Below are positions 3,316 through 25,136 of a stretch of DNA of 64,000 nt, piece by piece. How positions within the stretch are numbered: the first letter of the stretch is position 1; each line of letters starts with the position of its first letter. Both the position numbers and the translations under genes were made by a program. This DNA is from Kappaphycus alvarezii (taxonomy: Eukaryota; Rhodophyta; Florideophyceae; Gigartinales; Solieriaceae). The notes under the pieces are model-generated. The model was not told where the DNA came from. It ran no database searches and worked only from the letters and a program-made list of their open reading frames with translations. Location: contig NADL03000677.1 of assembly GCA_002205965.3 (NCBI GenBank), positions 310,001 to 374,000 of the forward strand, written 5' to 3'.

Positions 3316-3737
3316 TTAAGATCTAACCGGGTGTGCTTCGTCGTCCATGCGCATCGGGGCTCGCGACAGGATAGCTTCAGCGATGGATGACCAGAGGGTG
3401 CAACTCAGTCGCTGGTAGATACGGCGGCGGATAACGCCAACTGTCGAGTGACACTTCGACGCGATCCGCGGAACTAACTCCTCGATAAATGCAATAGTTC
3501 CAGGGGAAGGGGCACCTAGGGAATCAAACGCCAGAGGTCGAAACGTGAAGTTCGGCGTGTAGGATAGCACGAAATTGCAAAGCTTCACTATGATTGCTGC
3601 AAAGTGAGAAAACCAATGCTCCGGGCAGGAAGGCGCTTGTTCGATAACGCCGTTCGAGGCACACGAACGATTGGCGGAGAGAGGTATGATATTGGTGAGA
3701 TTGGTGGGTCGGCGAAAACTGCTCACGTCAATGGATG
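3316..3737 (-). pseudogene. LINE-like C-terminal fragment, interrupted by the gypsy insertion
   Basis: This minus-strand frame is open for about 140 codons from the edge of the gypsy LTR to a stop at 3316. It contains FTFRPLAFDSLGAPSP and then RRRIYQRLSCTLWSSIAEAI. That order (a 'P…F/ES…G' block, then a basic helix ending in RLS.. and A..I) resembles the extreme C-terminus of LINE-type RT proteins seen elsewhere in this window. The LTR inserted at 3733-3737 (GGATG) cuts off whatever lay upstream, and the DNA beyond the other LTR (10570 onward) shows no clear continuation. The assignment is tentative. Confidence 0.3.
3733..3737. repeat. Target-site duplication GGATG, left copy
   Basis: GGATG sits directly left of the TG that opens the left LTR. 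The identical GGATG follows the last base of the right LTR at 10565-10569. Five-base duplications are normal for Ty3/gypsy integrases, so this pair fixes both ends of the element. Confidence 0.8.
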
Positions 3738-4043
3738 TGAAATGCTTGTTTTTCTGTTTACTCTGCTTTTCTTTTTCTTTGTCGGCCAAGCGGAACCTAC
3801 CTTCTCCTTCCCTCAGACTCCGGCAGCCCTCTCGTCCTCTTATCGGGGCGGCCGGTCCGGGGTTTCTACTCGGGTACAGTGCAAGTACAGTGTACACTAC
3901 TACTGTACACAGTACGAGCCCACTTCCCGCTCGTACAGTGTACAGTAGTACTGTATACTGTACGAGCACACCGGGCCAATCAGCTAGCGACTCTCACCGT
4001 CGCGCGACACAAACCTGGCGCGACACAAAACTCGCGCGACACA
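3738..4043 (-). repeat. 3' LTR of the gypsy element
   Basis: This repeat matches 10242-10564 in the same orientation. It begins TGAAATGCTT at 3738 and ends ACACA at 4043, directly beside a run of seven C (the polypurine tract on the minus strand). The inner end carries three copies of a GTGTCGCGC motif. A near-palindrome of 37 bases lies at 3930-3966. It is shorter than the 5' LTR because it has one rather than two copies of a 35-bp unit, while keeping 18 bases that the other copy lacks near the outer TG end. Confidence 0.8.
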
Positions 4044-4054
4044 CCCCCCCACTT
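4044..4054 (-). other. Polypurine tract of the gypsy element
   Basis: On the minus strand this reads AATAAGTGGGGGGG immediately before the TG that opens the 3' LTR. A purine run directly upstream of the 3' LTR is the usual plus-strand primer of LTR elements. The adjacency supports the LTR boundary chosen at 4043. Confidence 0.65.
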
Positions 4055-4071
4055 ATTGTGAGCCACGGGCG

Positions 4072-4128
4072 CCACAAGATAATAACAGACTCCAGCTCAG
4101 CACCACAAGATAAGAACAGACTCCAGCT
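4072..4128 (+). repeat. Two 31-bp-spaced tandem units upstream of the antisense gene
   Basis: CCACAAGATAATAACAGACT at 4072 recurs as CCACAAGATAAGAACAGACT at 4103, each followed by CCAGCT. They lie between the polypurine tract and the antisense ORF start at 4487. A TATA-like CAATATAGGGG follows at about 4139. The stretch could be an upstream activating region for the plus-strand gene, but no promoter is proven. Confidence 0.5.
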
Positions 4129-4486
4129 TGCCCCCTCCCAATATAGGGGGCCCTCTCGTCACTACTCACCCAGGTCACTGCCACACCAAGCTTCTCTTCC
4201 GCCCAACCCAATCCACCTTCTCAACCACTCAACCTTTCAACTTCCGTCGGCCGAACGACCGAAGTGCTGAAAAACAGCCGGTATACGCCCTGAGGACCCA
4301 AATCCTCCAGACTCCGCCAACTTATTCTCGTCCCTGGACATTTTAACGGAACAAAACCCTCTCCAAGCTCCTCTTACCCCTGTAACTCTTCAACATCCCC
4401 AAACTGATCCACGAACCCTTTTCCATCTCCATCTCCTTGGCAGCTCAAACCTATTCGCAACTCCCTCTTTCTCCTCTCCTTTCTCG
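4129..4486 (+). promoter_or_regulatory. Putative promoter and 5' leader of the antisense gene
   Basis: About 360 bases precede the ATG at 4487. They hold a TATA-like CAATATAGGGG near 4139 and then long pyrimidine-rich, CAACC/CTTCC-type sequence, which looks like an untranslated leader. Short ORFs here (4128-4346) have low-complexity products and are not convincing. No such segment is normally needed between integrase and 3' LTR in a minimal gypsy element. Confidence 0.3.
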
Positions 4487-5043
4487 ATGGCTCGAACGAA
4501 GCAACTTGCTCGTTTGAGCACTGGTGTTCGCGTACCTCGCAAGAACATTGCCATTAAGGCGGCGCGAGTCGCTCGTGGCGCAAAGGGGCCCCCTTCGGTG
4601 GCCAGGGCGAATCTGATGCGTTTGTTGTCGGAACGTTCAGACATCAAAAAAGTGCTTATCATCAGTAGGGAAGAGCGGAACCCTTTCGTCATCCACACCG
4701 ACTCCTGTGGAATCCATCCGTACCGCGTCTCGCGTTAGGAGTTCCTAGATCTCTTCGGAACACACATCACGGAATACGTAGCTCACTGCGTCGGTGACGA
4801 AGTCATGCGTGAGGACGCTTTTCAACTTGGTCTCACGGAATCTCAGCACGATCGGCGCGTGTACGACGGGGTACGGGAAATGGATTGGATTATCAGCACG
4901 GTCCGCGAGGACGACGACACCCAGACTTATCGAGCAGTTGACACGGAAAATGGAGAGGAGCACTCTGCCTTGCCCTACACTCTAGCGTTTTCTGGCCCCA
5001 AAAGCCAGACGGTCACTCCATCTCTCGTCAGGCCCGGTTCTCC
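4487..5043 (+). pseudogene. Antisense cargo gene, N-terminal half: histone H3 tail-like protein
   Basis: The product opens MARTKQLARLSTGVRVPRKN and continues with AIKAARVA. Aligned without gaps to the canonical H3 tail, 19 of the first 29 residues are identical. K4, K18 and K23 equivalents are kept, while the K9, K14 and K27 equivalents are L, R and V. After residue 30 the similarity fades. A later segment (LFGTHITEYVAHCVGDEV, then MREDAFQL) is faintly reminiscent of H3 alpha2-alpha3, which is not conclusive. A TAG at 4736-4738 interrupts the frame, which then stays open to 5314. A GT at 4652 and AG at 4738 would bound an 87-base in-frame intron, so the stop may be spliced out. The ATG is the only good start. 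The gene lies inside the gypsy element, opposite to pol. Confidence 0.6.
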
Positions 5044-5746
5044 TTGGGGTGCGAAGGGCGACTCAGCGCTGTGTCGAGCGTCCACAGGTGCCAATCTCAT
5101 CCTGATCGTCGTCTCCAGTTGTCATCGGTTCGTTCCAGGGAGCCATGTGCTTCCCCCGATTCTCTCTTGGCCTTTCCACGCACTGATGTGGTGTTCCGCG
5201 ATGATACTGACCTATGCATCGGTTTCTTACTCTTCAACGCCCTCTGGCAGCTGGGTGCTCCTTCCGTCGCCTCAGAGTGGTTGGGGTGCTATGAGGGTAA
5301 CGATCGAGCTCTGAAGGCAGACATCACGCGTAGAAGTCGCATCAGGAGTTTGAGGGACGCCCAAAAGCATGCGCCTCCACGCTCGTTCATCCTCCATCAA
5401 ATCTTCAGTCTCAATCCGGGTATCAAGGAGATTTTGGCTCTTCCTAGTGGGGTCTACGTTTTGACGATCCATGGTTCCCATAGTGTCAATCACTGCGTCA
5501 TATAAACACCGAGACGGTCCAGATATGGATCCGTGTGAGCGCTTTGCTCTGGAACTCTCCTATTAATCTCTCCGTGAATGCTTCGGTGATAATTCTACGT
5601 TCATTTCCGTCTTAGAGGTCCGGAAGGCGGTGCTCGCGCCTGTAGGAAAGCACAGGAAGCGGCTTCCTAGTCGCAACTCATTGTCAGTCCGGGAGCGCGA
5701 GCGGAGGATGAGGGAGAACCAGGGAGGCAGCAGCGCAGCTCCCTAG
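5044..5746 (+). pseudogene. Antisense cargo gene, C-terminal half: papain-fold-like cysteine protease domain
   Basis: The coding frame moves by one base somewhere in 5044-5186. The new frame contains DDTDLCIGFLLFNALWQLG, a Cys at the head of a hydrophobic helix, then about 85 residues later GVYVLTIHGSHSVNHC. After two more small frame breaks near 5500-5525, NTETVQIW and DPCERFALELS follow. The order Cys-helix, strand with His-Cys, then D…W/Y-DP is the arrangement of papain-fold peptidases such as OTU-like or C39-like enzymes. The end is a strongly basic tail (RKAVLAPVGKHRKRLPSR) and a stop at 5744-5746. No family can be named with confidence. It follows the H3-like half on the same strand, so the two were probably one protein of roughly 400 residues. 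Confidence 0.4.
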
Positions 5747-5902
5747 TTGCTCAAGATTCAAGAATCCATCCGCCATGTTTACGATTTCTCTGCGTGCTTC
5801 CTTAGTGCTCAGCCTTCTATCATGCGTTCTTCTCTGTTATCGCCGTTAATCTACTTGATTCTTGGTTCTTCTTCTCTTGTTCCTCGATTTTCTTGCTTTT
5901 CC

Positions 5903-6940
5903 TTAGTTCAATAAATTGATTGATCTCTTCTGATACGGGACAATCCGGCGCGCGTGAATTGCCTTCCTTGTAACACGACCGGTGGAGGACATTAACTCGT
6001 AACGAGGGTGGTTCGCCTTAGTCACTCTGCACGGTCCGTAGAAATACGAGTCGAAGGCCGGCCAGTTGCGCCCCTTATTGAAGGCCGCACCGTGCGCTAC
6101 TAACATTTCATCTCCAACTTCGAACTCCTTGACTTTTCTCTTGGTCTTGTGGGGTTCGCTAGTCTTCTCCACCACGCCAGCCCGCGTCCCAGAACCGGCT
6201 AAGGTCTCGATAAGCCGATGATTGGGGCCGGCGTCACTGATAAATGCTACCGAATCACTGGCCGGCATACTCGGATTAATTCCATACATCAGTCGGAAAG
6301 GGGAATAGGCGTCGCTTTGATCGCGTCTGCGGTAACCGTATAGGACCTTGGGTAGGGCTTCTGCCCAGTCTGCCCCACCGCGGACGATTGAACTTTTGAG
6401 CGCGTGCTTGATAGTTCCCACCATCCGCTCCGCGCGGCCGTTTGCCATCGGCGCGTAAGCAAGCACCGCCTTCCACTCTACTCCTTTCTCTTTCGTGTAC
6501 TGATGCACTAATCCCGCCATAAACGCGGTCGCGTTATCCGAGACGATCCTCTTTGGCGGTCCAAACGGTGATATTATCTCTTCCTCGATGAACCTTATCA
6601 AGGTATCGGCAGTAGAATCCGTCGTGGCCCACGCTATGGGCCCCCCCGTCATACGTTCCACAGCGATCAGAATAAATCTTTTTCCAGTCTTCGAAGGCTT
6701 GAATGGTCCAGCGAAGTCCATCGAGAAGGTCTCAAAGAGTCCAGTAACGGGAGCTCTCAAACTCGAGTGATACGTCGGCAACCTTCTCACATGCTGACAC
6801 CCATCACAACCTTGTACATATTCGGTGACATCACGGTACACTCCAGGCCACCAGAATCGATCTCTCACGAACTTTCTTGTCGAACCGACGTCCCAGTGTC
6901 CAATATCATCGTGAAAGGTGGCCAGTATCTCCGACCATTA
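5903..6940 (-). CDS. Gypsy integrase
   Basis: The 321-codon main frame (5903-6868) covers most of the enzyme. The HHCC zinc-binding part starts just upstream in another frame (FHDDIGHW near 6905-6935) and continues with CDGCQHV in the main frame. The DDE catalytic core is intact: MDFAGP (first Asp), VSDNATAF (second Asp) and NGRAERMV (Glu). The C-terminal part has a GPY-like FYGPCRVTKANHPRYEL. It would insert element cDNA into the host chromosome. It ends at a TAA, after which the 1.86-kb antisense cargo region begins. Confidence 0.85.
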
Positions 6941-7600
6941 ACCGATCGGAGGCACAACACGGAGCCCGTCCTTCTCGCGACGAAAGAGGGTGTCGTTCCA
7001 GAGCATGAAACTCTTCGCACTCGGTCTGACTGCGACCTTCTTCTTCGGGTCGGTTTCTTGAACTCGTTCTCCGGAAAGAAACCGTGCTACATTTAGCAAG
7101 TGCGGTTCCAAACCATCCAACTTTGGATCTGCCCAATCCACTGTCGCTACCAATCCTTCTGTTATATTTTCATCGTTTCTTCTTTCTTTTTTCTGGTTAG
7201 GTCTTCGCGAAAGATAATCGGCCGCCCCATTCGCTAGTCCCGGACGATACTTGATATCAAATTCGTATTCCGCCATAAATCTATCCACCTCGCCAACCGC
7301 TCGTGAATATCTTTCTTCTTGAACGCGGTTTGAAGTGCTTGATAGTCTGTATAAACGACGAAAGGCTTATCAGACAGAAGGTAAACTCGGAACTTCTTAA
7401 GAGCGAAAACCACGGCGAGTGCTTCTCGTTCGCTTGTGTAGTAGCGGCGCGCCTGGCCCGTCATCGTTCGAGAAGAGAAGCAAACTAAATGGGATGTATT
7501 TTCCCGTCCTCTTTCTTCTGAGAGAGAACAACCCCAAGGGCTGCCGAAGAGGCGTCTGTTTCCACCAAGAAAGAAGAATTGAAATCCGGAAACGCTAATA
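6938..7600 (-). pseudogene. Gypsy RNase H domain with tether (frame-broken)
   Basis: The reading passes through two frames. From right to left, FLVETDASSAALGVVLSQ (7500-7590) opens the domain. ARRYYTSEREALAVVFALKKF and VVYTDYQALQTAFKKKD follow in 7234-7464, and then AEYEFDIKYRPGLANGAADY in 6938-7288. These are the acidic active-site blocks and the tether to integrase normal for gypsy pol. The frame change near 7285-7300 would truncate the polyprotein in this copy. Confidence 0.75.
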
Positions 7601-8690
7601 CTGAAGGGTAGTCAGTTTCCCCTCCAAGTACTCGAAAGCCTCTTCCATCTCCGGGGTCCATTTGAAAGCCTTCTTGACAGACGTCGCCGCGTGTAACACT
7701 GCTGATCTGTTGGCAAACCCCCTTATGAACCGTCGGTAGTACCCTGCGAGACCTAGAAAACTCCTGAGCTCGGTCACGTTTCCCGGCACTGGAGCTTCCA
7801 CAATATCTTTGATCTTGTCGGGGTCCACCTTCACACCACTTGAATTAACGATGTGACCAAGCAACTTCACTTCTGATTGAGCAAAGCTGCACTTGGTAAC
7901 CTTCAACTTCAGCTTCGATTCTTGGATCCTCCTGAACACTTCCTTGCAATGAGCTATGTGTTCCTCCAACGTCTTCGACAAAATAACAACGTCGTCCACA
8001 TAAACCATAGCGAACGGCAACCCGCGAAGCACCTCGTCCATCATTCTTTGAAACGTTGCTGGAGCGTTCATGAGTCCAAACGGCATTACCTCGAACTTGT
8101 ACGTTCCATATCCAGAGACGAACTTTGTCTTTTCCTTGCAAGTTTCGGACATCCTAACCTGCCAGTATCCTGTGTAAAGGTCCAATGTTGTGAAGAACTC
8201 TGCGCCAGAGAGTTAGTCGAAGATTTCTTCTATTTTCGGTAACTGCCAGCTGGCTTCATCACCCTGTTCAACTGACGGTAGTCGACGCAAAACCGGGACC
8301 TTCCGTCTTTCTTCGTAGCTATCATTACCAGAAAGGACCAGGCGGACCTTGATGGCGTAATTATTCCAGTTTCCAATAATTCCTTCACTTATTTCCTTAT
8401 GACTTCGTTATGCCTCGGCGGAATTCGGCGGGTTTTCGAATGTATCGGAGTCTCGTTCTTCAACTCGAAGAATGCACCACCGGCACATGAGCAGGCTCCA
8501 GATCGTGAATGCCCCAAGTTATGACATCCGTTTCCTTGAGAGCTTTCGCCAACTCCTTCTGATTCTTCCCTTCGAGATGGTCCAGCTTCGAGGCCAGTAG
8601 AGCCGAGCAGTCCACCTCCACTTTTACCTCCATCTTAACTTCAGTCTTCGTCGAGCGAGGTAGATCAGGCTCGTACTGTTCCTTGTTAGT
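7595..8690 (-). pseudogene. Gypsy reverse transcriptase (frame-broken upstream part)
   Basis: The frame 7595-8185 is intact and holds GTYKFEVMPFGLMNAPATFQ, the catalytic YVDDVV (7985-8002) and FLGLAGYYRRFIRGF. These are the palm and connection motifs of Ty3/gypsy RT. Upstream, 8186-8690 continues in several frames with stops, keeping a LTLD-like palm start just before YTGYWQVR and charged linker sequence further on. The enzyme copies element RNA into DNA in virus-like particles. With these breaks the copy should not make a full pol. Confidence 0.8.
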
Positions 8691-9168
8691 GATGGCTAAG
8701 ACCAGGTCTTGCTCGTATCAGATCCACTATCGCTTTCGCTAGACGACGAGGACAGGTGGAGAGATTACTCATCGTCCGAAACTTTGGGGACGTGAAGTCC
8801 TCAGTGTCCGTCTGAGCCCCATTGATTCTGGACGGCTCGTTGACGAATGGCAACACAACCTCTTCTTCTCCAATAACCAAAGTGACATGTTGGAGTGCGT
8901 AATCAATGCGCGTCTGGAGAGCTTCCAGAGTCGGGCTTCCAACAATAACGTCAAACGGGGCATTGTTGACCACCAGGAACTCCAAATGCACAACCATTGA
9001 CCCATACGACACCGGCACTCCCTTGAGACAACCCAGAACCTCGGCGACAGTTCCGTCTGCTACCGTCACCTGACGATCGTTTTCCGTCGGAGTGAGGGCA
9101 AGCCTTTGCAGAGGTCCCAAGAGATCAGGTTAGGAACTGCATCCGTGTCCAAAAGGGCATGAGTCTCC
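8686..9168 (-). pseudogene. Gypsy aspartic protease with altered active-site triplet
   Basis: In one frame (about 9121-9168) HALLDTDAVPNLIS is readable. It is the active-site loop of a retropepsin, where the family has D-T/S-G. The rest, LGPLQRLALTPTENDRQVT through FLVVNNAPFDVIVGSPTLE, is in the gag frame from 9120 down to 8686. The single frame change lies between the loop and the flap region. Protease cleaves the gag-pol polyprotein. D-T-D instead of D-T-G should impair catalysis, since the Gly allows the fireman's-grip geometry. Confidence 0.65.
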
Positions 9169-10218
9169 GTTCCATACAACTTCACGGCTACTACCTTGAG
9201 TCGTCGTGAACCTCCTGAAGAGCGACGCCTGTGTAACAGGTAACATCTTGGATAAAAATCTCCTTAAAAAATTTCTGACCTCCACGGCATCCCCGCGCAA
9301 CAGTTGCCCGAAGTTCATTCCTGTGGCAGCGAAAGCCAGTTTAGAGATCACTTTATACTTCCCTACATGATCCTGAAGCCCACCGGATTTCTTCTTCGAT
9401 TTGTGGTTTCCTCTCTTGGTCTTCTTCCTTGGGGCGGGAGCCATCATCGGCGGACGATTAGCAGGGGCTTTGTTCAAGATGACATCAAGAGCCATCAAGC
9501 TTTCCCTCCGCTGTTTCGTGAGTGCCTGCCCGTCCGCACTTCTCCTCGCGGCGGCCACCACGTCCTTTTTGCGAGATTCCTGAACAAAGGCGACCTTGTC
9601 ATCGTCCTTCGGCTTCTTCATTTTCAATTCTTCTCCAGACTCAGACCGGGCCCTGGAAACTCCTCCTCGCTGATCATCACCACGACGGTTCTTGGACCAG
9701 CATGTTGCTTCCGAATGTCCCCTTCTCCCACAAGTCGTACAGCGTGTATCTCTATGCGAATTATGCGGGCAACGGCTCGCTCCGTGGCCCTTCTGGTTGC
9801 AATAGCTGCAAAAATAATCCGCATCCGTCTTCACTGGCGTCGTCGTTTCGGCAACTCTCTTGTATAGAGCATCCAATTGCGCTAGGGAGCCCGTTGAGTC
9901 CTTCGGGTCCGACCTAGCGTTGATAGCCTTCTGCAATTCTTCTTCCGGCTTCTGGGTCTTCCCAAACTCCTCGATGAGCTTAGCCTTAACGGTCGAATAG
10001 TCCTTCGCCTTCTCCGCCAACGCTCCATCTCTTGCGAAAGCCTCGTAGTAACGCTCGAACGCTGCGCCGTCGAGGTGGCAAATGATCTGGAGCGCCTTTT
10101 CCTCTTCTCTTTTCCCGCGCATAACTACATTCTCGTACGCGAAAAGGAATCGCGCGATATTGGAAGAAGGGGAACCGTTGAAGGAAATGTGGGTTCTCCG
10201 GGAATCTTTCATGTTCAT
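9130..10218 (-). CDS. Gypsy gag (capsid and nucleocapsid)
   Basis: The open frame reaches from inside the LTR to 9130. The first ATG (10242) overlaps the LTR/PBS junction; the next in-frame ATG at 10218 is the more natural start. The capsid-like part contains FAYENVVMRGKREEEKALQI and EKAKDYSTVKAKLIEEFGK. Two zinc knuckles follow, CSYCNQKGHGASRC (about 9770-9811) and CTTCGRRGHSEATC (about 9701-9742), then a Lys/Arg-rich stretch. It would form the virus-like particle and package element RNA. The last residues before the TAA are out of frame with the conserved pre-protease sequence, so a frame change occurs near 9180-9200. Confidence 0.8.
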   Translation of the reverse strand: MNMKDSRRTHISFNGSPSSNIARFLFAYENVVMRGKREEEKALQIICHLDGAAFERYYEAFARDGALAEKAKDYSTVKAKLIEEFGKTQKPEEELQKAINARSDPKDSTGSLAQLDALYKRVAETTTPVKTDADYFCSYCNQKGHGASRCPHNSHRDTRCTTCGRRGHSEATCWSKNRRGDDQRGGVSRARSESGEELKMKKPKDDDKVAFVQESRKKDVVAAARRSADGQALTKQRRESLMALDVILNKAPANRPPMMAPAPRKKTKRGNHKSKKKSGGLQDHVGKYKVISKLAFAATGMNFGQLLRGDAVEVRNFLRRFLSKMLPVTQASLFRRFTTTQGSSREVVWNGDSCPFGHGCSS

Positions 10219-10224
10219 AGTCGA

Positions 10225-10241
10225 CCTTGGATGCGGTACCA
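10225..10241 (-). other. Primer binding site of the gypsy element
   Basis: Immediately after the LTR end (…TTTCA on the minus strand) the sequence reads TGGTACCGCATCCAAGG. PBS sequences start with TGG, complementary to the CCA end of a tRNA, and abut the 5' LTR. The tRNA species was not identified. Confidence 0.65.
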
Positions 10242-10564
10242 TGAAATGCTTGTTTTTCTGTTTACTCTGCTTTTCTTTTTCTTTGTCGGCCAAGCGGAAC
10301 CTACCTTCTCCTTCCCTCAGACTCCGGCAGCCCTCTCGTCCTCTTATCGGGGCGGCCGGTCCGGGGTTTCTACTCGGGTACAGTGCAAATACAGTGTACA
10401 CTACTACTGTACACTGTACGAGCCCACTTCCCGCTCGTATACTGTACACTGTATGAGCCCACTTCCCGCTCGTATACTGTACAGTAGTACTGTATACTGT
10501 ACGAGAACACCGGGTCAATCAGCCAGCGACTCTCACCGTCGCGCGATACAAACCGCGCTCGACA
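10242..10564 (-). repeat. 5' LTR of the gypsy element
   Basis: It matches 3738-4043 in the same orientation and is base-for-base alike over its first 160 positions (plus coordinates). It holds two copies of a 35-bp unit starting at 10416 and 10451 (GTACGAGCCC / GTATGAGCCC), where the other LTR has one. A 37-base near-palindrome of CTCGTA…TACGAG type lies at 10469-10505. In the minus direction this is where element transcription would start. Confidence 0.8.
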
Positions 10565-10569
10565 GGATG
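10565..10569. repeat. Target-site duplication GGATG, right copy
   Basis: Identical to 3733-3737 and directly beside the last LTR base. Confidence 0.8.
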
Positions 10570-11817
10570 TATACTGTATAGCTAGAATTTCGAGTTATGA
10601 GTTACAACTCACGAGTCTTATTTTAAGAAAGTGATTTTTCCCACTTCTGTCGCGAAAATAAAGAGTCAGAGTATAGTGAGGAGTCTGAAAAACTGAAGTG
10701 TTTGCATAGGATAGACAAATTGAATAGGTTTAATTGAAAATTGTATTGCCATGCTTTATTTTACGTCAGTAATTTTCCAAATCCAAGATTGATAAACCAG
10801 GAGCACAGGTGCTATCCTGGGCCCAAGAAGTCCCCAGGGCACCTGATAACCCTGAAAGAAATTCTGGACCCAAGTTCTGGGGTGCGTTGTATATAATATA
10901 AAACATATTTTGGATTGAAGAGAGATTCCTGGCCACAAAATCCTGGGAGAGATATCTAAAAGACTTTGTGGTGATTCCCAGTAAAACTTTGCTGTGAATA
11001 TTTCAGTTGGTTTATATAATTGGAACTAGTCAGAAAACGTTTTATGCTAGTCGAAAGTGTGATATTGCGGTTTGGAGCGAGTTTAGGGATTCCCGAGAGG
11101 GTTTCAATTTGAAGGGCACCCTCGACTAAGTGTCCTAGCTTTGGATAAGGCCCACGTGCATTACAAATACTTAAGAATATTTTCTTTCTTTGTAATTGAA
11201 ATCGAATTCTCAGGAACAGCAATTGCTGAACTTAGATTTTGCTTCACTGTAACGCTCTCATCCGTAAAAGCTCATTTATTCGATAGAAATCACAGATTTA
11301 TGTAAGAAGAACTGGGCTTCAACTAGTTTGAACCCTTTACAGATACTTGCTAACTAAATTGTCGCGATAATAATAATGAGTGATGTCTAGATATTTAAAT
11401 GAAGAAGGAGAAATGGAGTTCGTTTATCGCGAGTAGTTCAAATGTTGTATTCCAATAAATTTTCATTCGAACGATATCGCAATGCTGTCACAGAACCTGA
11501 AGTACGAGAGTTCGAGCATTTCGGCATGTAGTCATATGAAACTTTTATTCAAATGATTATGGAAGATCAACAGTGCCAAAGTCTGAACACTTAAGCAACT
11601 AGAAAGAAACCAAGATCCAGTAAAAAAGACAGGAAGCATTTGAAGTGACCATCAACAATGGAGTTGTTCTCTAGTGTATTTTGTTGCCATGACAACAGAA
11701 GAGATTCAATTCGAAATTTTAGAATGAAAAACTATAAAATGGATATATGTATGATGCAATTCCCCGATATTTTCTCTGTGTAGAGTTCTCGTTTTTCGTT
11801 GCAAATATAAATTTCTA
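10570..11817. other. AT-rich DNA without a recognised gene; contains a dispersed repeat
   Basis: No convincing coding region is visible; the small frames on the minus strand (10756-10938, 10956-11222) look accidental. A stretch at about 10763-10870 (ACGTCAGTAATTTTCCAAAT, then CTGG/CCCAAG-rich) recurs inverted at about 30270-30415, so it belongs to a dispersed repeat family. Confidence 0.4.
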
Positions 11818-12097
11818 TTTGGTGCTATGACTGGAAAATTATGGATGAATTTATCGAGAAGCTTCATCTTTTCTGCCTTCCACCACTATAAGCAAGTCAC
11901 GCGTGATATTCTGATTCCAAATATAAGTCGGATTGTCATAAGCGCACCAACGCTGCGCTACCTGTCTACCTGGTAATTTTCATGGTTTTCAAGAACATGC
12001 GCAAGTGCGAAGACAGCCCGTTGAACAGGGCTATATAATTCCCGACTTTGGTCTCCTTCGTTGCTTTCGCTAGTCTCCCAAGTTGTCACTTGTTCTC
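11818..12097 (+). repeat. DIRS-like terminal direct repeat, left copy
   Basis: It shares long blocks with 16118-16397, for example TTTATCGAGAAGCTTCAT and TTGCTTTCGCTAGTCTCCCA. A short palindrome (GCCCGTTGAACAGGGC) followed by CTATATAAT at about 12023-12041 looks like an element promoter, placed ahead of the gag-like ORF. Confidence 0.75.
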
Positions 12098-12460
12098 ACC
12101 ATTCGAACCAGCTCCGGACGAATCAACCGTCTAGGTCGACCTTAACACTTTACACATCAACATATCTAATTAGACGTCCTCATTCTCTTCTGCACCATCC
12201 GCCAACCCTCGTCTTGAAACCCTTGAGAACAAGGTTGTTGGTATCGACGGCCAACTCTCAGAGATCATCAACCTTTTCCAGCCGAAATCCATATTTGCTA
12301 ACCCCGCAACTCCCGCGGTGGACCGACCAATTGACGCAGAGAATCCGACGGACCCTGCCACCGTCAAACCTGCACTGGATACGGAAGTCATCCGTCCCGC
12401 TACTGAGGCGTTCCAAGTTAGCAACCTGCAGTTCTCGCTACCCCGCCCCCTGCAGAAGCC

Positions 12461-13057
12461 ATGGCCGAAACCTTTGGTACCCGTAGAGCCTACTCAGCTG
12501 CCAGAAAGCTTAACAAGTTCAACAAACCGTCTACCGTTGCCCCTTTCTCCGCAAGTCGGTTCATCCCAGAACCGGAAGGTTTATTCGGTCGGATCAAGTC
12601 AGCTGACCAACGTGACAGTTGGGAAGCAGAATTCCTCTGGAATACTGGGAAAAACTGCGAGAACTCTCTTTAAATAGCCCACAAGATCACCGAAGCCCTC
12701 GTGGCTAAGGACGCCGAAGCCGCTACCGAGGCATTTTCCGTTCTTCATCACTTTCTTCAAGCATTCTATTCTCGCGTTCATAAACCCGTCGAGTTCTTCA
12801 CCGGCGTTGATAGCCTAATAGCCTTGGAATCTGGCAATTCCAAGGCTATTATACTACATAATTACCTCCGCGAAGACGATTGAAGTTACTCCTCCGAGCT
12901 CTCCCGCTCCACCAAGCACAAGTTCGCCGAGCTTCGTTCCCAGCCTCCGCCAAGTAGTTCAATAAGCAGTAGGACTCCTCTAGTAACCGGCGCCAAAACC
13001 GAACTCAAGGAAGGGGTAACTCCCAGAACCCTAAGCCTGCTCGCAAGTAAACTCGTC
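12461..13057 (+). pseudogene. DIRS-like gag
   Basis: The frame starting at 12461 (MAETFGTRRAYSAARKLNK) runs through a TAA at 12671-12673 and resumes as KITEALVAKDAEAATEAF and HHFLQAFYSRVHKPVEFF until a TGA near 12886. After a frame change a basic tail (SSSNRRQNRTQGRGN) follows. Size and a positively charged, Gln/Asn/Arg-rich end are usual for DIRS gag. A perfect 15-bp inverted repeat sits in the coding sequence at 12816-12851. Function is inferred from position ahead of RT. Confidence 0.5.
12816..12851. repeat. Perfect 15-bp inverted repeat (hairpin) inside DIRS gag
   Basis: TAATAGCCTTGGAAT (12816-12830) is followed by a six-base loop CTGGCA and the exact reverse complement ATTCCAAGGCTATTA (12837-12851). 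In RNA this would form a strong stem-loop. Its role is unknown. Confidence 0.85.
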
Positions 13058-13061
13058 GCAG

Positions 13062-13990
13062 TTGCGACCTTTTCTTTCTGCTATGTGGCACATTCTATGG
13101 CGCAAAACTCAGAAAGCCGCCTCGAATTGGTGCGAACACCTCCACGCTTCGGAATTCCTCGTACGTGCATTTCGGTTCGGAGTATATGAAGCACCATCAA
13201 GACTTCTCTTTTCCTCACTCAATTCAAACTCCATCAAATCCCTGTCGATCCACAAGACAGGGAATTATTCGACTCGACCATCGCGGACACCTTGCATCGG
13301 AAGACCTATTAGGAAATCTCACCCGCCACAGCTCTCAAGTTACACCGCCAAGGATACCTCATATCAAATGCTTTCGTAGCAGTATCTGGAGGCAAGCAAC
13401 GATTGGTGGTCAACCTCTCTCGCCAATCTACGTTGTTCAGAGACGTGCTGGTCAAGTTGGAAACTTTAGAAGGATTCGCTCTGGAACTCAAACGAGCAGA
13501 TTTCATGTTTTCCTTCGACATCGAGAAGGGGTACCATCACTTCCGACTATATCTCGATATACGGAAATGGTTTTTGTTCAAAGTGGACAACAGGCATTTT
13601 CGATTTATTGCCCTACAGTTCGGCTGGAAACTTTCCCCGCATATTTCGTCAAGTTTATGCGCCCGTTCGTCCGATACATTCGCCAGTACTACCGTCTGTG
13701 AGTTCACCCTTACATGGACGACTTCCTAATCGCTGTAAGAAGCCGCCCTTGCCTACTCGTCAACCAATCGATCATTTAATGGAATCCTGCGGACTATTGC
13801 CAAAGGAGAACAAAGGAAACCGGACTGGTACTCGCCGCATCGAGCATTTTTGTTCCATCTTGCACACTTTACGCATGGTTTTTGGTATCTCAGAGTCGAT
13901 GGGAAAAGCTTCATGGAATTGCCGAGCAATTGTTACGCCAAAGTGGCCAGAACCGCCGCCTGGTCGACGTTCAGCTATTACGCCACTTCA
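13062..13990 (+). pseudogene. DIRS-like reverse transcriptase
   Basis: The coding thread passes through three frames. It includes SGGKQRLVVNLSRQSTLF, then ADFMFSFDIEKGYHHFRL (palm Asp) and FRFIALQFGWKLSPHIF, and YMDDFLIAV at 13711-13737 (catalytic Asp pair). The F/SPDI-GYHH and LxFG(W)xxSP motifs are typical of DIRS RT rather than gypsy RT. The frame changes between the palm block and YMDD, so no full enzyme is made from this copy. Confidence 0.7.
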
Positions 13991-14006
13991 CTAGAGTAGC
14001 AATGTC

Positions 14007-14620
14007 GTGTTCTTTCGCAATGCCTCTCGTTCGATTTTGATCCCGCTCGATGTAAGAGTCCCTGAAGCTCAAGACCAAGTCAGGGAAAATAGTGCGGCTG
14101 CTACACGCAGCTACTCGGGACTTCAGTTTTTGGCGGGACCTGCCTGTAAACCCACCAGAAAGGCCAATATCACCCCCATCCCTTCCTCTGGCGATGCACT
14201 CAGACGCATCGACCTCTATCGGTCAGGGAAGGACTTTAGGATCGGATCTTTGGCGGGGAGCACAAAGTATGTGGGAAGCTCGAGGACTTTGGAACCAGTA
14301 CTTCACGTGAAGCCAGTCACCTTCATGGAATTACGCGCAGTCACGGACAACATCAGGTCGTTTGCAAGTATGTTACGCTGTGGAACCCACCTCAAGATCT
14401 GGGAGGACAATCAAGCAGTCGTATCAAATTTGGACGCTATGAACACGAAGTTCAAACCGCTCATGAGAGAACTCCGAGTGTTACACCGATTTCTTACACG
14501 TCTAGTAATATGCATCGAATCTCATTACCTCCAGTCAGCCCTGAACTGATTCGCCGACAGGCTATCTCATGTGCACACAATAGACGATTGAAGGATCAAT
14601 CTAGAGCCGCTGAGACCCCT
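14007..14620 (+). pseudogene. DIRS-like RNase H domain
   Basis: A block with VTFMELRAVTDNIRSFAS and LKIWEDNQAVVSNLDAM is followed by HYLQSALN, a stop at 14547-14549, and then FADRLS in the same reading. This is the E…D…(S/A)D.LS pattern of the RNase H that follows DIRS RT. Further on (14620-15080) the sequence is coding-like but broken. Confidence 0.6.
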
Positions 14621-15093
14621 CTTAAGCAAGGTATCTTCCCCAATGGACCGCTTCCCAGAAAGTTTGAACAAGGTTTGCCCGCGCGTCAACAGCGAGCATA
14701 CGTGTCCAGGATCCCTTGCAATAGACGCTCTGACACAAGATTGGAGTCAGCCCATCAACCTCTGGAATCCGCCGCTCAAGTTGATCCCTCTAGTCGTTAC
14801 CAGGATCTATTAGGAAAAAGCCACCGGAATATTGGTCACGCCGTATTGGCCTGCGCAGCAGTGGTTCACTCGCTTGCTGCATTTGACAAGCCGGCATCTT
14901 TTCGACGCCGAAAATCCATATCTCCCACCCATCCGGGAACCCAAGAAAATGCCCGCTCCGCCGTGGAAACTCGCCGTCTGGAAAATTTTGAGAAAGAAGC
15001 ATCGACACTTTCGCTAGCTGTCACGCTCCAGCAATCTGTTTTGGCCGCGGCTGGCTATAGAAACTCGGGGGTGGTGTAACTATTGCGCAAATC

Positions 15094-16193
15094 TTGCCGA
15101 AGGCCCGTGTACGCAATAATTGGCGCTCAAATGAGGTACTCTGGAAAAAATGGCTACAGTTTTTTACTGAAGATGATATTGACCCCTTTTCTGCATCAGA
15201 AGGGGCGTTTCTCCGCTATCTGAGTTGGCTTTTTACACGAGATAAGGTTAGCGGCTCATCCGTTCGTAACTATCTCTCGGCTGCCACTACCGCTCTTGCT
15301 CGAATTGGAAAGTCTGTCACTCTTAAACCTCTCCTAGGGCTATCTGTGGTCACCTATAAGCAAAGCGATCGGGAGAAGAAACTACTCAGCGATCCGCTTA
15401 TAAGCAAAGCGATCGTGAGAAGAATCTACTCAGCGATCCGGACTTGGTGAAAGAAAGGCGTGCATTGCCCAGTTCATTTGCACGGAAAATAGTAGAAACT
15501 GCCCTCGCTTCGCAGTCTACCGACATCGAGTTTCTTCATGACGAAGCCACTGTCCTGGTTATTCATGTTTTCTTTGAAAGAGGGGGAGCCGGAGTCTCTC
15601 TTTTACTCTCAAACATTTGGGTCACAGCTGACTCAATCAACATCGCTCTTGCCTTGGGAAATAATCAACAGCGAGTGGCACAAACTCTCTCCTATCTAAG
15701 GAACAGGAATTTTCAAACAAGCATTTTGGATCTTGTCGCTCGTTATGACTCACTTCGGCGCAACAATCGTATCCAAAGTAAGTACTATTGGGCTCTCCCT
15801 GGCGGTAGACTGTCAACCAGCGCTCGAAACATTACAGTATGGTTAAGGAATTGCTTAGATCGCGTCAGGGTATCTCCGCCTCCTCAAGTATTGTGGACCT
15901 CGCATTACATCCGTATGGGTGCAGAATCCGAATGTGCTACAATTGCGGTGCAAGAATATCGCATCTCGATCTAGGGAGACTGGTCAAACAGTCGCAAATT
16001 CCACGAATCGTATCTAGATGGGCGTGTGTTACAGTTTGATGATTTTTGTTCTTCTTCGGTCATATGTTGTGACCTCACCCTCGCATCATCCCTCGTCTTT
16101 TGGTTTTCCCAATTTAATATTCGGTGTTATGAATGTAAAAGTATGGGTGAATTTATCGAGAAGCTTCATGGTGTCTGCCCTCCACTACTATAA
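15094..16193 (+). pseudogene. DIRS-like tyrosine recombinase
   Basis: The N-terminal core-binding part is in the first frame (15094-15450: WKKWLQFFTEDDIDPF, FLRYLSWLF). The catalytic part is in a second frame (15444-16193) and ends with TSHYIRMGAESECA (the H..R motif), a TAG at 15972-15974 where a Trp is usual, and then FHESYLD with the probable nucleophilic Tyr. The frame switch is explained by a 44-bp tandem duplication at 15356-15443. This enzyme would insert a circular cDNA by recombination. The final codons run into the right terminal repeat. Confidence 0.7.
15356..15443 (+). repeat. 44-bp tandem duplication inside the recombinase gene
   Basis: ATAAGCAAAGCGATCG starts at 15356 and again at 15400. 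The two units differ at only a few bases. Because 44 is not a multiple of three, the duplication throws the frame. Confidence 0.8.
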
Positions 16194-16397
16194 GCAAGTC
16201 ACACGTGACATTCTGATTCCAAATATAGGTCAGATTGTCATAAGCACACCAACGCTGCGCTACGTGTCTACCTGGTAATGTTCATGGTTCGCAAAAACTT
16301 TCGCAAATGAAGAAAGCCCGTTGAACAGGGCTATATAATCCCCGACTTTGGTCGCCTCCGTTGCTTTCGCTAGTCTCCCAAGTTGTCACTTGTTCTC
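16118..16397 (+). repeat. DIRS-like terminal direct repeat, right copy
   Basis: Matches 11818-12097 with scattered differences, including the palindrome plus CTATATAAT box at about 16316-16338. The recombinase ORF ends inside it at 16193. Confidence 0.75.
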
Positions 16398-20464: not shown

Positions 20465-20573
20465 TGTCAAAGGAACCAAGACAGACTATCCGGCAACCAA
20501 AATAGTATAAAACGACGCCCTCTTAATCAAACAATAGTGAGAAGTAAAGAGGGTATCGATCTACGAACCAAAA
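20465..20573 (+). repeat. 5' LTR of the copia element
   Basis: It starts TGTCAAAGGAACCAAG and shares CGGCAACCAAAATAGTATAA and AGTAAAGAGGGTATCGATCT with 24975-25131. It lacks about 46 bases present near the start of the right copy. The exact 3' end is uncertain by a few bases. Confidence 0.7.
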
Positions 20574-20850
20574 TATTATGGGCAAACGCTTCACATAACC
20601 CACTGCCGAACACCAAATCCATGGTCACAAGACCGCCAACGGCTTGCACATCCGAACTGGATCCACAGTCTCCCCACAAGCAACAACCAAGACCCACACC
20701 CGCTCTGTCCGCTAGAGCCACCAGGGCATCACGCAGGGCTCAGAACGCCCCTTCACCTTGCTCACCCAAGAGCTTCTCAGACTCACGAGACTCCAAGCAT
20801 CCGACACTCAACCTCCATACCATCCACACGAGCCAAGCACCACACCCACA

Positions 20851-22395
20851 ATGAACACAGTACCCACTCCCAAGATAGCCCAACTCAACAAGGAAAACTA
20901 CACACCATGGGTCCTCTCAATCCATGGAGCTTCCGCCTCAATCGACGCAACGGAACAAGTCACACAAGATCCTGAGCCACCTAACGATCCAGCAGAACTC
21001 AAAACACTCACCCAAAAGCAAGCCGTACTGGTGGGCGCCCTCATCGACTCCATCCCCTATGAGATCACAGACATCGTCGTCCACAGCAACCAACGCCCGA
21101 CACCACACCGACTCATAACAGAAGTCACAAAATACATTGACGCAAAGCAATATCATGATCATCACACGCTAAAGACAAGGGCAGAAGCAACCCGGTTCAC
21201 GGAGGACATGACAGTCGCAGATTACCTCACCGCACATGAACGCATCCGCGCCAAAATGCTCACCGCACACTATCCGGACATATCCAATCCACCCACAACG
21301 GTGGAATTCATGATAGAAGGCCTCTGAACCAACTCAACCACATCCATGATCGCACTTCTCATGTATGACAACAAACCGAAAGACCCAAATGAATATGCCC
21401 AAAGTCTCACAGGCCTAATCCGGCTCAACACGCAAGGCCAAGCCGGCCCTACACACGGAGCCCCGCACACAGCAGACACCACCAATGCGGTCCTTGCAGA
21501 AATCCTCAAGCAGCTCAACGCCTTTCGTAGCTCCAACCAGACGAAACGCAACAGCTTCAAGCCATGCCAACATCACATGGCCCTCGAATTCGCTAATCCA
21601 CGGCACACTGACGACCAACGCAGAGATCCCAACCACCCGAAAACACTCAAGGCCCAACCAGGAGCCAAACAAGCTGACAACGACTACACCACCCTGATAC
21701 ACCAACTCCAAGCCATGATCTCGGTAAACCAAGTCCCCGCCGAATACAACCAAGACTGTACGTACATACTCGACTCCGGAGCCACACCCACCCACATCGT
21801 AACCCCCACACCCGAAATTTTCAAACTGAACTTACCAATCCCAACCTCCACCGCCACGGAATCAAACTCCATATGCACCCACGATGGTATCATAACAATC
21901 AAGCCGACAACGAATAAGCGCCTGCATCTCCCCGCAATGGCCAACTCATCCCTTCGCCACAACCTACTGTCTGTCCACGACATAGCAAAGTACCACGGTC
22001 CTATTTTCTTCACAGAAACAATCGCCCTCCTCCTTGCACGAAAACACAACACCATCAAGCTAATAGCCAAAGCACCATTGGTCAAACAGCTCCAGGCCTA
22101 CGTAGTAGCAACAGGTACACAACACCCTCCATCCCCACAAGCTAGGCTAGCAGGCACAACCGAAATCATGAGACGTAAAACGAAACCGCGCACCACAACT
22201 ATCCAACCGACACCCCCACCCCACCTCACACACCAAGGCCAACGCCCACCAAACAAAAACACCCAGCCCCCAAACCCACCCACGGACACACTGTGCGTGC
22301 CCACCCATCCAAACCGATACGAATCACACCCCACCCACGGCTCCCACCTAAACCAATCGCAAGACTCACCGAAAAACTGCACAAATGGCACATGA
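20851..22395 (+). pseudogene. Copia gag and protease
   Basis: The ATG at 20851 opens MNTVPTPKIAQLNKENYTPW, whose 'L…ENY..W' is the usual copia gag opening. The frame reads through a TGA at 21325-21327 and continues to 22395. Near 21560-21600 a Cys/His-containing stretch (KPCQHHMALEF) may be a damaged zinc knuckle. TYILDSGATPTHIV at about 21757-21798 is the retropepsin active site with intact DSG. The C-terminal part is Pro/Thr-rich. Confidence 0.75.
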
Positions 22396-23260
22396 TTCTC
22401 AACCACGCCAATACCCGCACCATACAAGAAATGGCCAAACACAACACACTGCCACTCATACCCAAGCAACTCCGCCAACCTCCACCTCCCCTATCCTGCA
22501 TACCGTGCCGACACGCGAAACTCACCAAAGCTCCGCACCAACCAAACACCAAAAAATACAAAGTCGGAGCATATGCCAGCTCGGACACATGCGGCCCCAT
22601 AAAGCCACCATCCAAACACGGCAGCCACCATTTCCTCACGTTCTTGGATGCAGAAAGCAAATACCTCAACATATACATGCTCCGATCTAAAGACCAAATC
22701 AAACACTTCACACCCATACACATGGCACTGATCAAAACATTCCATGGGCAACCCCCCCATACAGTACGCGTTGACAACTCAAAAGAACTCATCTCACAAC
22801 AACTGCAAGACCTATACAAGCACCAGGGCATACAGCTCAAAAAAAACACCCTACCAGCCCCAGGAAAACTCAAGAGCAGAAGGCATCAATCGCTTGCTTA
22901 TGAATGCGGTACGGGCCGCCATCACGGCAGCCAAAATGCCCCTGATATTTTCGGAAGACGCACTGCAAGACGTTGTGTACAAATACAACCTCATACGACA
23001 CTCAGCCACCGGCAAATCCCCTTACCAGCTATGGTACAGGTGCAAACCGACCATCTCAGCCCTCTTCACATTCGGACAGTACGGACACATCTCGATCCAC
23101 AAGCCAAAGTCTAAGCTGGAACCCAGAGCAGTAATGGTGCGATACATGCACCCCATCGATGATTCCGTGATCCGTAAATGGAACCCAGCATCGGAAGAAT
23201 ACATACGAGCACGCGCCAGGGACTTTCGACCCTATGACCTGAGACAAGACCCCACGCCCA
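22293..23260 (+). pseudogene. Copia integrase (frameshifted)
   Basis: The first frame (22293-23114) has the zinc-binding part (KWHMILNHANTRTIQEM, then CIPCRHAK) and the first two catalytic acids in SSDTCGPI and VRVDNSKEL. The third, in NSRAEGINRL, is in the next frame (22744-23907) after a one-base shift near 22850. KSPYQLWY follows, the conserved end of the core. The enzyme inserts element cDNA. Confidence 0.8.
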
Positions 23261-23990
23261 CCATACCGATGGCTTTACAGGCCACCCCACAACGCCTACC
23301 AGAACCACCTCAGACAACAGCGCAGGCTCGCAAATACAAGGATGCACAGTTACGGGCTGAAGCCCACGACAAGGAACTGGACACACTAAACAGAGAAGAA
23401 ACATTCAAGTGTGTCCGTAACAACAAAGTTCCTCGCTCAGCGAAAGTCATCCCACTAAAAATGACGTACAGATACAAGCACTCTCCCAACCTAACCATAG
23501 CCCGAAAAGCTCGCTGCTCCGTCCGCGGCGACAAGATGAAACCATACCTCCACTATTACCCAAACAACACAACAACGTACAAGGCCGAAAAAACAACAGT
23601 ACGCCTCCTCCTTGCCATCGCCGCCCACTATGGATGGAAAATTAGCCACTTCGATATACCAGCAGCATACCTCCACGAACCATACACCTACTCCAAGCCG
23701 GTTTATATCCAAGAGCAACCACAATTCAATGGCGAAATAAGACACCCGCACCACACTGGGATACTATTACGGAACCTCTACGAAACACCACCTGCAGCGC
23801 ACACATATCACACCAGCCTGGTATCTCACCTCAAGGCGCACGGATACAACCAGAACCAAGCAGACCCCTGTCTGTTCTCAAACACCACAACGGAGCCCCC
23901 ATCCTAATAGAAGTAAGCATGGACAACTTCCTACCCATATACCACCTACCTGAAAACATCCAAGAACTGCTGACTATCCTCGGCAAGAAA
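23260..23990 (+). pseudogene. Copia reverse transcriptase with altered catalytic motif
   Basis: VPRSAKVIPLKMTYRYK opens the RT and KISHFDIPAAYLHEPY carries the first catalytic Asp. ILLRNLYETPPAAHTYH and then CLFSN follow. After a frame change the catalytic box reads VSMDNFL (23913-23933), where active copia elements have V(Y/F)VDD. The second Asp is therefore Asn and the Tyr is Ser in this copy. Confidence 0.75.
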
Positions 23991-24113
23991 TAGAAAATAT
24001 CGAATCTAGGCTATCCCACTACATACCTAAAGTGGAACATCAAAAGAACGCAGCACGGACACATCCACGTCTCCCAACCGCATGTAATCAAGGCGCTCCT
24101 CCACAAAACGCGC

Positions 24114-24837
24114 ATGACAAACAGCAAACCAAATGAAACACCCGTACCAGAGAACTGCAACTGGATCGAAGCAAACACAGCCACTCCCCTAACCCCGCCG
24201 CAAACCAAGCAGTACCAATCCATACTAGGAGATCTCAGGTACCTCACAGACAGCACCAGGCCGGATATACAATTCGGGGTCAACAAGCTCGCGGAACACA
24301 TGCGCAAACCCACAACACAGCACTACAAAATTCTCTGCTGGCTCCTGCAGTACCTAAACGCCACACAAAATCACGGCATACTGTATCGCTAGAACACACA
24401 ACTAAAGCCAATCGGCCACCCCATCACAACATATACGGACGCCGACTTTGCAAACAGCACCAACCGCAAGTCACGAACAGGCATTGTCCACACCGCACGG
24501 GGATCACCGATAAGGTGGTGCAGCAGCAAACAGAATATTGTTGCGAAGTCCACCTGCGAATCAGAGTACATGGCAGCATCCGATGACGTCCAACAAACGC
24601 AATGGCTACGACGACTACTCCAAGACTGCATATTCGCAACAACAAGAGCATCCAAAGTACTTACAGACAACACCGCCACCATGCAAATAGCCAAGAACAG
24701 TGCACCAACGAAGAAACGAAAACTCATCGACATAACCATCACCACTTGGTAGACCACGTGCAACGCAATACAGTCACCATGCATTATGTCGCATCAGCTC
24801 ACAACATTGCTGACATGTTCACAAAGGCCCTAGGCTA
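24114..24837 (+). pseudogene. Copia RNase H domain
   Basis: The frame has SILGDLRYLTDSTRPDIQF, a TAG at 24390-24392, then TTYTDADFANSTNRKSRTG, the SKQNIVAKSTCESEYMA block and VLTDNTATMQIAKN. These are the RNase H signatures of copia pol, in the right order. The end reads HNIADMFTKALG just before the right LTR, after a small frame change near 24740. Confidence 0.8.
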
Positions 24838-24974
24838 GAACAAAATCGCCAGGCACCGAAGCCAACTCCACATATGCGACCTCACCGCTACCGACCCCAA
24901 CACACCCTCCAACGCCAACCTCACCCAAAACCCCAACGGCCAACCTGATTTTGCTCCATCTTTTTCCCCAAGAC

Positions 24975-25131
24975 TGTCAAAGGAACCAAGAAAGCAATCA
25001 AAACGAGAAGAAAAATCGCTCTAATCAAAGTAACCCAGACAGACTGTACGGCAACCAAAATAGTATAAAACGACGCTTTCGTAATCAAACAATAGTGAGA
25101 AGTAAAGAGGGTATCGATCTACGAGCCAACA
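24975..25131 (+). repeat. 3' LTR of the copia element
   Basis: 157 bp, starting TGTCAAAGGAACCAAG and ending …GAGCCAACA, followed by ATCTC at 25132-25136, which repeats the left flank. It includes a 46-base stretch missing from the left LTR. Confidence 0.75.
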
Positions 25132-25136
25132 ATCTC

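Follow-up and report, generated by a model that had tools for sequence, protein, structure and literature searches.

The window, by which we mean the whole 64,000-nucleotide stretch analysed here, contains at positions 3738–10564 a decayed Ty3/gypsy retrotransposon, with the target site duplication GGATG on each side (left copy 3733–3737, right copy 10565–10569). Its LTRs, which read on the minus strand, have TG...CA termini and are identical at 277 of 288 aligned bases. The 5′ LTR is at 10242–10564. The 3′ LTR occupies 3738–4041, of which 3738–4025 is aligned to the other LTR, and its end at about 4041 was set by the terminal CA and the adjoining purine tract. This tract, AAGTGGGGGGGTG on the minus strand (4042–4054), is a likely polypurine tract, and a putative primer binding site, TGGTACCGCATCC on the minus strand (10229–10241), adjoins the 5′ LTR; both were recognised from the sequence. 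Palindromic repeats of the TACAGTGTACAC type are present in the LTRs (window positions 3879–3969), and their number is unequal between the two.

Pol lies on the minus strand, and Pfam matches placed the reverse transcriptase at 7595–8212, the RNase H at 7234–7611 and the integrase (Integrase_H2C2 and rve) at 5903–6937, all on that strand and in the order characteristic of Ty3/gypsy elements. A possible aspartic protease region was found at 8686–9129 (minus strand; E 0.034, below the Pfam cut-off), followed by a gag-region ORF without Pfam match at 9130–10241, minus strand. The integrase frame of this element, the one scanned, gave no match at E values up to 1 to Chromo, the domain that marks the chromovirus branch. 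Two other elements were noticed in the window. One, at 11810–16397, is about 4.6 kb long with terminal repeats of 289 bases, 89% identical; its ORFs are DIRS-like by eye, and the one frame scanned had no Pfam match. The other, at 20467–25133, is of the Ty1/copia type, with end repeats 92% identical and matches to rve and RVT_2, and a GAG-pre-integrase match below the cut-off.

A plus strand frame, antisense to pol, starts at position 4487 between the integrase and the 3′ LTR and encodes MARTKQLARLSTGVRVPRKNIAIKAARVA... at its N-terminus. Residues 1–29 of this ORF share 19 of 29 positions with histone H3, without gaps, and none of 200,000 shuffles of residues 2–29 reached 19 H3 identities. A phmmer comparison of the product with PDB sequences matched histone H3 residues 1–34 (E 2.7e-5). 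The sequence-only reading had described an H3-like tail running from the initiator Met and encoded, antisense to pol, by a TSD-flanked Ty3/gypsy element between integrase and 3′ LTR. The likeness is borne out by these comparisons, and the location by the LTRs, the TSD and the pol domains.

The mimic of the H3 tail, counted as the Met and the 26 residues after it, corresponds to 4487–4567 (plus strand). The frame is open for 83 codons (4487–4735, plus strand) and is ended by a TAG at 4736–4738. Behind it, the decayed remainder of the ORF (4739–5746, plus strand) shares homology with the body of a relative whose frame stays open over 421 codons. With its stop codon and at least one frameshift, the window copy of the ORF is probably non-functional. 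The gene had earlier been given as 4487–5043. Its start was correct and its end was not: the open stretch stops at 4735, and position 5043 is not the natural end because homology to relatives continues to about 5746. Conservation of a promoter or TATA box ahead of the ORF was considered and dropped, a TATA-like site being absent from most copies compared.

In the undamaged form, the protein has about 420 residues and consists of an H3 tail (residues 1–26) fused to a novel body without recognised domain. No Pfam or PHROG match above cut-off was found in the body pieces scanned, and a single Granin match (E 0.17) was below its cut-off. Several copies, though not each, contain by eye a Cys-Ile-Gly...Asn motif, then His-Cys-Val and Asp-Pro. 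This Cys ... His ... Asp pattern, also judged by eye, presumably resembles that of papain-type cysteine peptidases (clan CA); the Pfam and PHROG scans gave no recognised domain of this kind for the body. Used as a query, the C-terminal frame of the body found no homologues, and no confirmed relative of the ORF was found in viral and prokaryotic collections. Four candidate homologues from other species (P0001–P0004) were rejected, since they carry the same source label (‘lgn’) and P0003 is, by eye, identical in reading to the host locus L080.

No Histone Pfam match was found in the ORF pieces and frames scanned. A profile built from 18 natural pieces matched H3-type chains only, over positions 1–37 at most (best 60 of 137 hits). 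A full captured histone was rejected, as no fold was found in the frames scanned. The earlier suggestion of a captured and diverged H3 gene fits the tail, but not the rest of the protein, where similarity to H3 ends at about residue 27–37 and no histone fold was found.

The 83-residue product was searched against the host assembly (336 Mb), a check that the sequence-only reading had proposed. At least 134 distinct places were found, derived from the 150 matches listed, 150 of 383 candidates having been scored. Tail-bearing copies were assigned by eye to at least five subfamilies, called A to E, and all of them come from one genome. Subfamily D was reached not via the tail but via integrase matches (64–67%) without a listed tail match. 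A subfamily D query then gave at least 153 matches in the host genome and led to subfamily E.

The antisense accessory ORF occurs at the same place in several pol lineages, so that another suggested check, the search for the same ORF in other copies of the family, had a positive outcome. Among the subfamily A loci L001–L030, an LTR lies upstream in the same orientation in 27 of 30, and an antisense integrase downstream in 22 of 30. An antisense integrase was also present at all four B and C loci inspected (L059–L062). These B and C integrases share up to 57% identity with that of the window in aligned pieces (28–33% in the decayed L061), and the body remnants at the same four loci are 33–49% identical to the 421-residue copy, again in aligned pieces. 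The position between integrase and 3′ LTR was seen from both sides for subfamily A and for the mixed matches; for B, C and D, the flank seen was that of the integrase. Starting from the integrase, 19 of 82 matches have a tail match within 4 kb, all 19 antisense and in the expected order, among the matches listed (82 being the 120 listed, less 35 of identical score and three second pieces). At least one copy, L013, has an unbroken 421-codon frame. This locus (L013/L143) has no upstream LTR match and no integrase at the usual place; an LTR lies downstream, with an integrase fragment beyond, and it is a rearranged or displaced copy.

As a control, 24 loci were picked by their integrase among the matches without a listed tail match. 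One lineage (L104–L107) had a homologous antisense ORF with an H3-like start in four of four loci, in varying states of decay and with the first codons damaged in one of the four. All 12 near relatives of the window element (L091–L102, integrase 78–89%) retain only the C-terminal end of the ORF. They are derivatives that arose by internal deletion, and in some of them the pol frames are open over long stretches. The ORF is not required in every copy, as these derivatives show, and since 12 of 12 near relatives are without the tail, elements have spread tail-less. It is possible that the tail-less copies were helped in trans.

Five further control loci (L103, L108–L111) had no ORF match within the 2 kb looked at, and three (L112–L114, integrase 51–53%) had only a short MAHTKQTA-like motif (3/3). 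In these three, a short frame antisense to pol starts MAHTKQTAVR or close to it, about 300 bases from the integrase (locus position about 1700), and one contains an internal stop. This frame may be related to the H3-like start, as a truncated or an older form. The 35 integrase copies of identical score, among the matches listed, have long open frames and are 50% identical to the window integrase, which suggests a recently active family. In L063, the single copy of this group that was checked, there was no H3-like ORF match.

The residues of the tail were compared between subfamilies. The H3 residue is the commonest one in each of A to D at T3, Q5, A7, S10 to G13, A15, P16, A21 and K23 to R26. 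A1 is commonest in A, C and D. The whole of A1, R2, T3, K4 and Q5 is commonest in A and C, and R2 to Q5 in B. K4 is kept in 32 of 36 tails of A, 9 of 13 of B, 19 of 21 of C and 0 of 4 of D, and K23 is kept in 69 of the 74 tails of A to D; 70 tails were found by a query that contains the tail, so that sampling favours retained tails. At position 14, K is seen in C only among A to D. T6 and K9 are both replaced by L in A, B and C. Subfamily D retains T6 and K9 and has K2 (3/4), R4 (4/4) and A8. Subfamily E has K6 (12 of 20 further tails), S8 and L9; the 20 further tails were picked by hand from the 153 D-query matches, at 30–68% identity and including query residue 1 or 2. At every position from 1 to 26, at least one of A to D has the H3 residue as its commonest, which suggests that the common ancestor carried the whole H3 tail.

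The two lysines at positions 9 and 27 behaved differently. K27 was kept in none of the 74 tails of A to D and in none of the 20 further tails (0/94). K9 is replaced in four of the five subfamilies and kept in D (4/4) and in 4 of the 20 further tails. A rule that both lysines are always lost fitted the first 70 tails, and was dropped since subfamily D, found by its integrase, keeps K9. The window's subfamily has L at position 9 and V at 27. Of the 21 tails of subfamily C, 17 have M at position 27, three have I and one has T; R26 is present in 16 of 21 and S28 in 20 of 21. Most C copies have both R26 and M or I at 27, a K27M-like arrangement. The window copy, which has V, does not share it, and neither do A, B and D as judged by their commonest residue. 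As position 27 lies at the margin of the H3 similarity, the loss of its lysine may reflect that margin; this applies less to C, where S28 is kept.

Tail and body were then compared for constraint. In all ten pairs of subfamilies, the tail is more alike (identity 0.46–0.73) than residues 28–75 (48 residues, 0.22–0.35), as judged from the 29, 4, 10, 3 and 10 copies of A to E that were aligned, the body comparison using no more than the first 10 copies per subfamily. Between A and C, likeness falls sharply at residues 27–28 (L041, L044, L046, L048, L057 and L058 excluded). Between A, B and C, the tail differs at a proportion pS of 0.73–0.88 of synonymous sites versus a pN of 0.20–0.26, and its synonymous sites are near saturation. 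Within subfamilies, decayed copies included, the contrast between tail and body is weak: dN/dS was 0.21 for the tail versus 0.26 for residues 35–61 in A, and 0.48 versus 0.82 in C. The pS, pN and dN/dS values were obtained after exclusion of L019, L027 and L030 in addition to the six loci above. At synonymous sites, the tails of A, B and C differ from the H3 genes of the host by 0.65–0.91.

We propose that the antisense accessory gene encodes an H3-tail mimic, which would serve as a decoy or pseudosubstrate competing for silencing enzymes and weaken the silencing of the element, a reading to which we give a probability of roughly 0.48. Removal of the initiator Met would expose the tail. The exposed tail would bind host proteins that recognise the H3 N-terminus, and could act in trans, competing with nucleosomal H3 for silencing enzymes; the outcome would be a weakened silencing of the element family. 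We propose action in trans as a decoy or pseudosubstrate since none of the tails read has K27, and since K9 is either absent or altered in context in the five subfamilies: in D, it follows A8 and not R8. With no K27 in any tail read and no K9 in four of five subfamilies, the mimic would hardly be able to take silencing marks there.

By analogy, subfamily C would be the clearest case, M or I at position 27 being the substitution that makes H3 a PRC2 inhibitor. PRC2 is inhibited by H3 that has M or I at position 27, and EZHIP requires the arginine preceding its methionine, according to the passages of PMC6513997 that deal with these peptides. In the host genome, four VEFS-box (Su(z)12) matches were over the cut-off, and the two that were rechecked both hold. 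Pre-SET (Suv39-type) gave no match in the host genome search, which is no proof of absence. We know of no test of L9 or V27, the residues of the window's subfamily, as inhibitors. A decoy for H3 readers and writers, one of the roles put forward in the sequence-only reading, would be the best mechanism, because the exact tail stands at the N-terminus, K27 and often K9 are lost, M or I at 27 is combined with R26 in C, and the host has VEFS-box genes.

The main rival is that the tail is a docking peptide. It would recruit readers or erasers of the H3 N-terminus, namely PHD-finger or LSD1-type proteins that require A1, R2 and K4 to be free. Their presence at the element, or at its integration complex, would serve to open chromatin or to select target sites. 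The prevalence of A1 to Q5 in A and C and of R2 to Q5 in B is what such proteins would call for; A1, directly after Met, would be exposed, and a second contact could come from the body. We nevertheless consider docking unlikely. Subfamily D has K2 (3/4) and R4 (4/4), and the likeness is equally strong over residues 10–26, which readers of the H3 N-terminus need less.

An H3-derived segment could also be kept for its charge only, as a basic nuclear-import or DNA-binding stretch. The tail is basic, and GENE23, the product of the antisense aORF in the plant element Grande, is found in the nucleus, as stated in the review's entry on it (PMC7264820). Charge would not, however, require that uncharged residues be kept, and T3, Q5, A7, S10, T11, G12, G13, A15, P16, A21, A24 and A25 are commonest in each of A to D, whereas several lysines are exchanged. 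This makes conservation for charge improbable.

Repeated capture of H3 tails from host genes by the subfamilies would account for the departures from H3, whose positions differ by subfamily. It is very improbable in view of the homologous body that A to D all have behind the tail, the T6L and K9L replacements common to A, B and C, and the synonymous divergence of the A to C tails from the host H3 genes. Finally, the ORF could be a host gene or H3 pseudogene that landed accidentally in a single element and does nothing there, the outcome by which the sequence-only reading would have been overturned. This is hardly credible and is contradicted by our results: the window copy has a stop codon and a frameshift and many copies are decayed, but the ORF and its place recur in many copies and several diverged pol lineages, the tail persists in A to C with synonymous sites close to saturation, the frames scanned gave no histone fold, and all three full-length H3 genes of the host are of the ordinary kind.

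A more specific form of the proposed decoy can be considered, namely that of a retrotransposon-made oncohistone. Its K27 would be unmethylatable (M or I in one subfamily), often also its K9, and it would poison or titrate silencing methyltransferases in trans, each subfamily having tried out its own substitutions in an arms race with them. We regard this version as possible, but doubtful. Were the tail a decoy or pseudosubstrate, it would be a counter-defence by which a retrotransposon opposes heterochromatin, and K27M and EZHIP would have a natural parallel in it. Short peptides with the natural variants at positions 4, 9 and 27 would be assayable on H3 methyltransferases and readers.

Antisense ORFs located between pol and the 3′ LTR (aORF-3R) are described for Grande (gene23), RIRE2, Retand and the Botrytis element Boty, and are like the ORF reported here in place, orientation, presence in many copies and a function that is not known, as far as the review's section on them goes (PMC7264820). 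In that description, aORF-3R products have no clear protein similarity except to SMC and transposase 28 domains, whereas here the product starts with an H3 tail; aORF functions are given as unknown in the same review, and here the sequence names likely partners. Our searches of open-access literature listed no earlier report of a retrotransposon-encoded H3 tail.

EZHIP/CATACOMB, the mammalian PRC2 inhibitor, is a non-histone protein with an H3K27M-like peptide, and most C copies likewise read ARMS, with R before M (PMC6513997, PMC12713659). As portrayed in the relevant parts of these papers, EZHIP/CATACOMB belongs to the host genes of placental mammals and has its short motif close to the C-terminus, whereas here an element gene carries the whole tail (1–26) at the N-terminus. 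The window copy has V instead of M. In the H3 K27M and K9M oncohistones, a methylated lysine of the H3 tail is replaced by a hydrophobic residue, as in the ORF, and leucine, found here at position 9, is not among the inhibitors described in the portion of the source that covers them (PMC6562757). Oncohistones are whole histones within nucleosomes, whereas no histone fold was found here. Other element-borne genes are thought to act on host epigenetic marks, such as the Vandal-encoded regulator, the fungal TET/JBP genes and the oomycete SET transposon genes. In the text that treats them (PMC12730594), these are enzymes or sequence-specific regulators carried by DNA transposons, in contrast to the histone-tail mimic of an LTR retrotransposon. 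The antisense additional ORF is itself of a known kind; the new feature is a retrotransposon-borne H3 tail.
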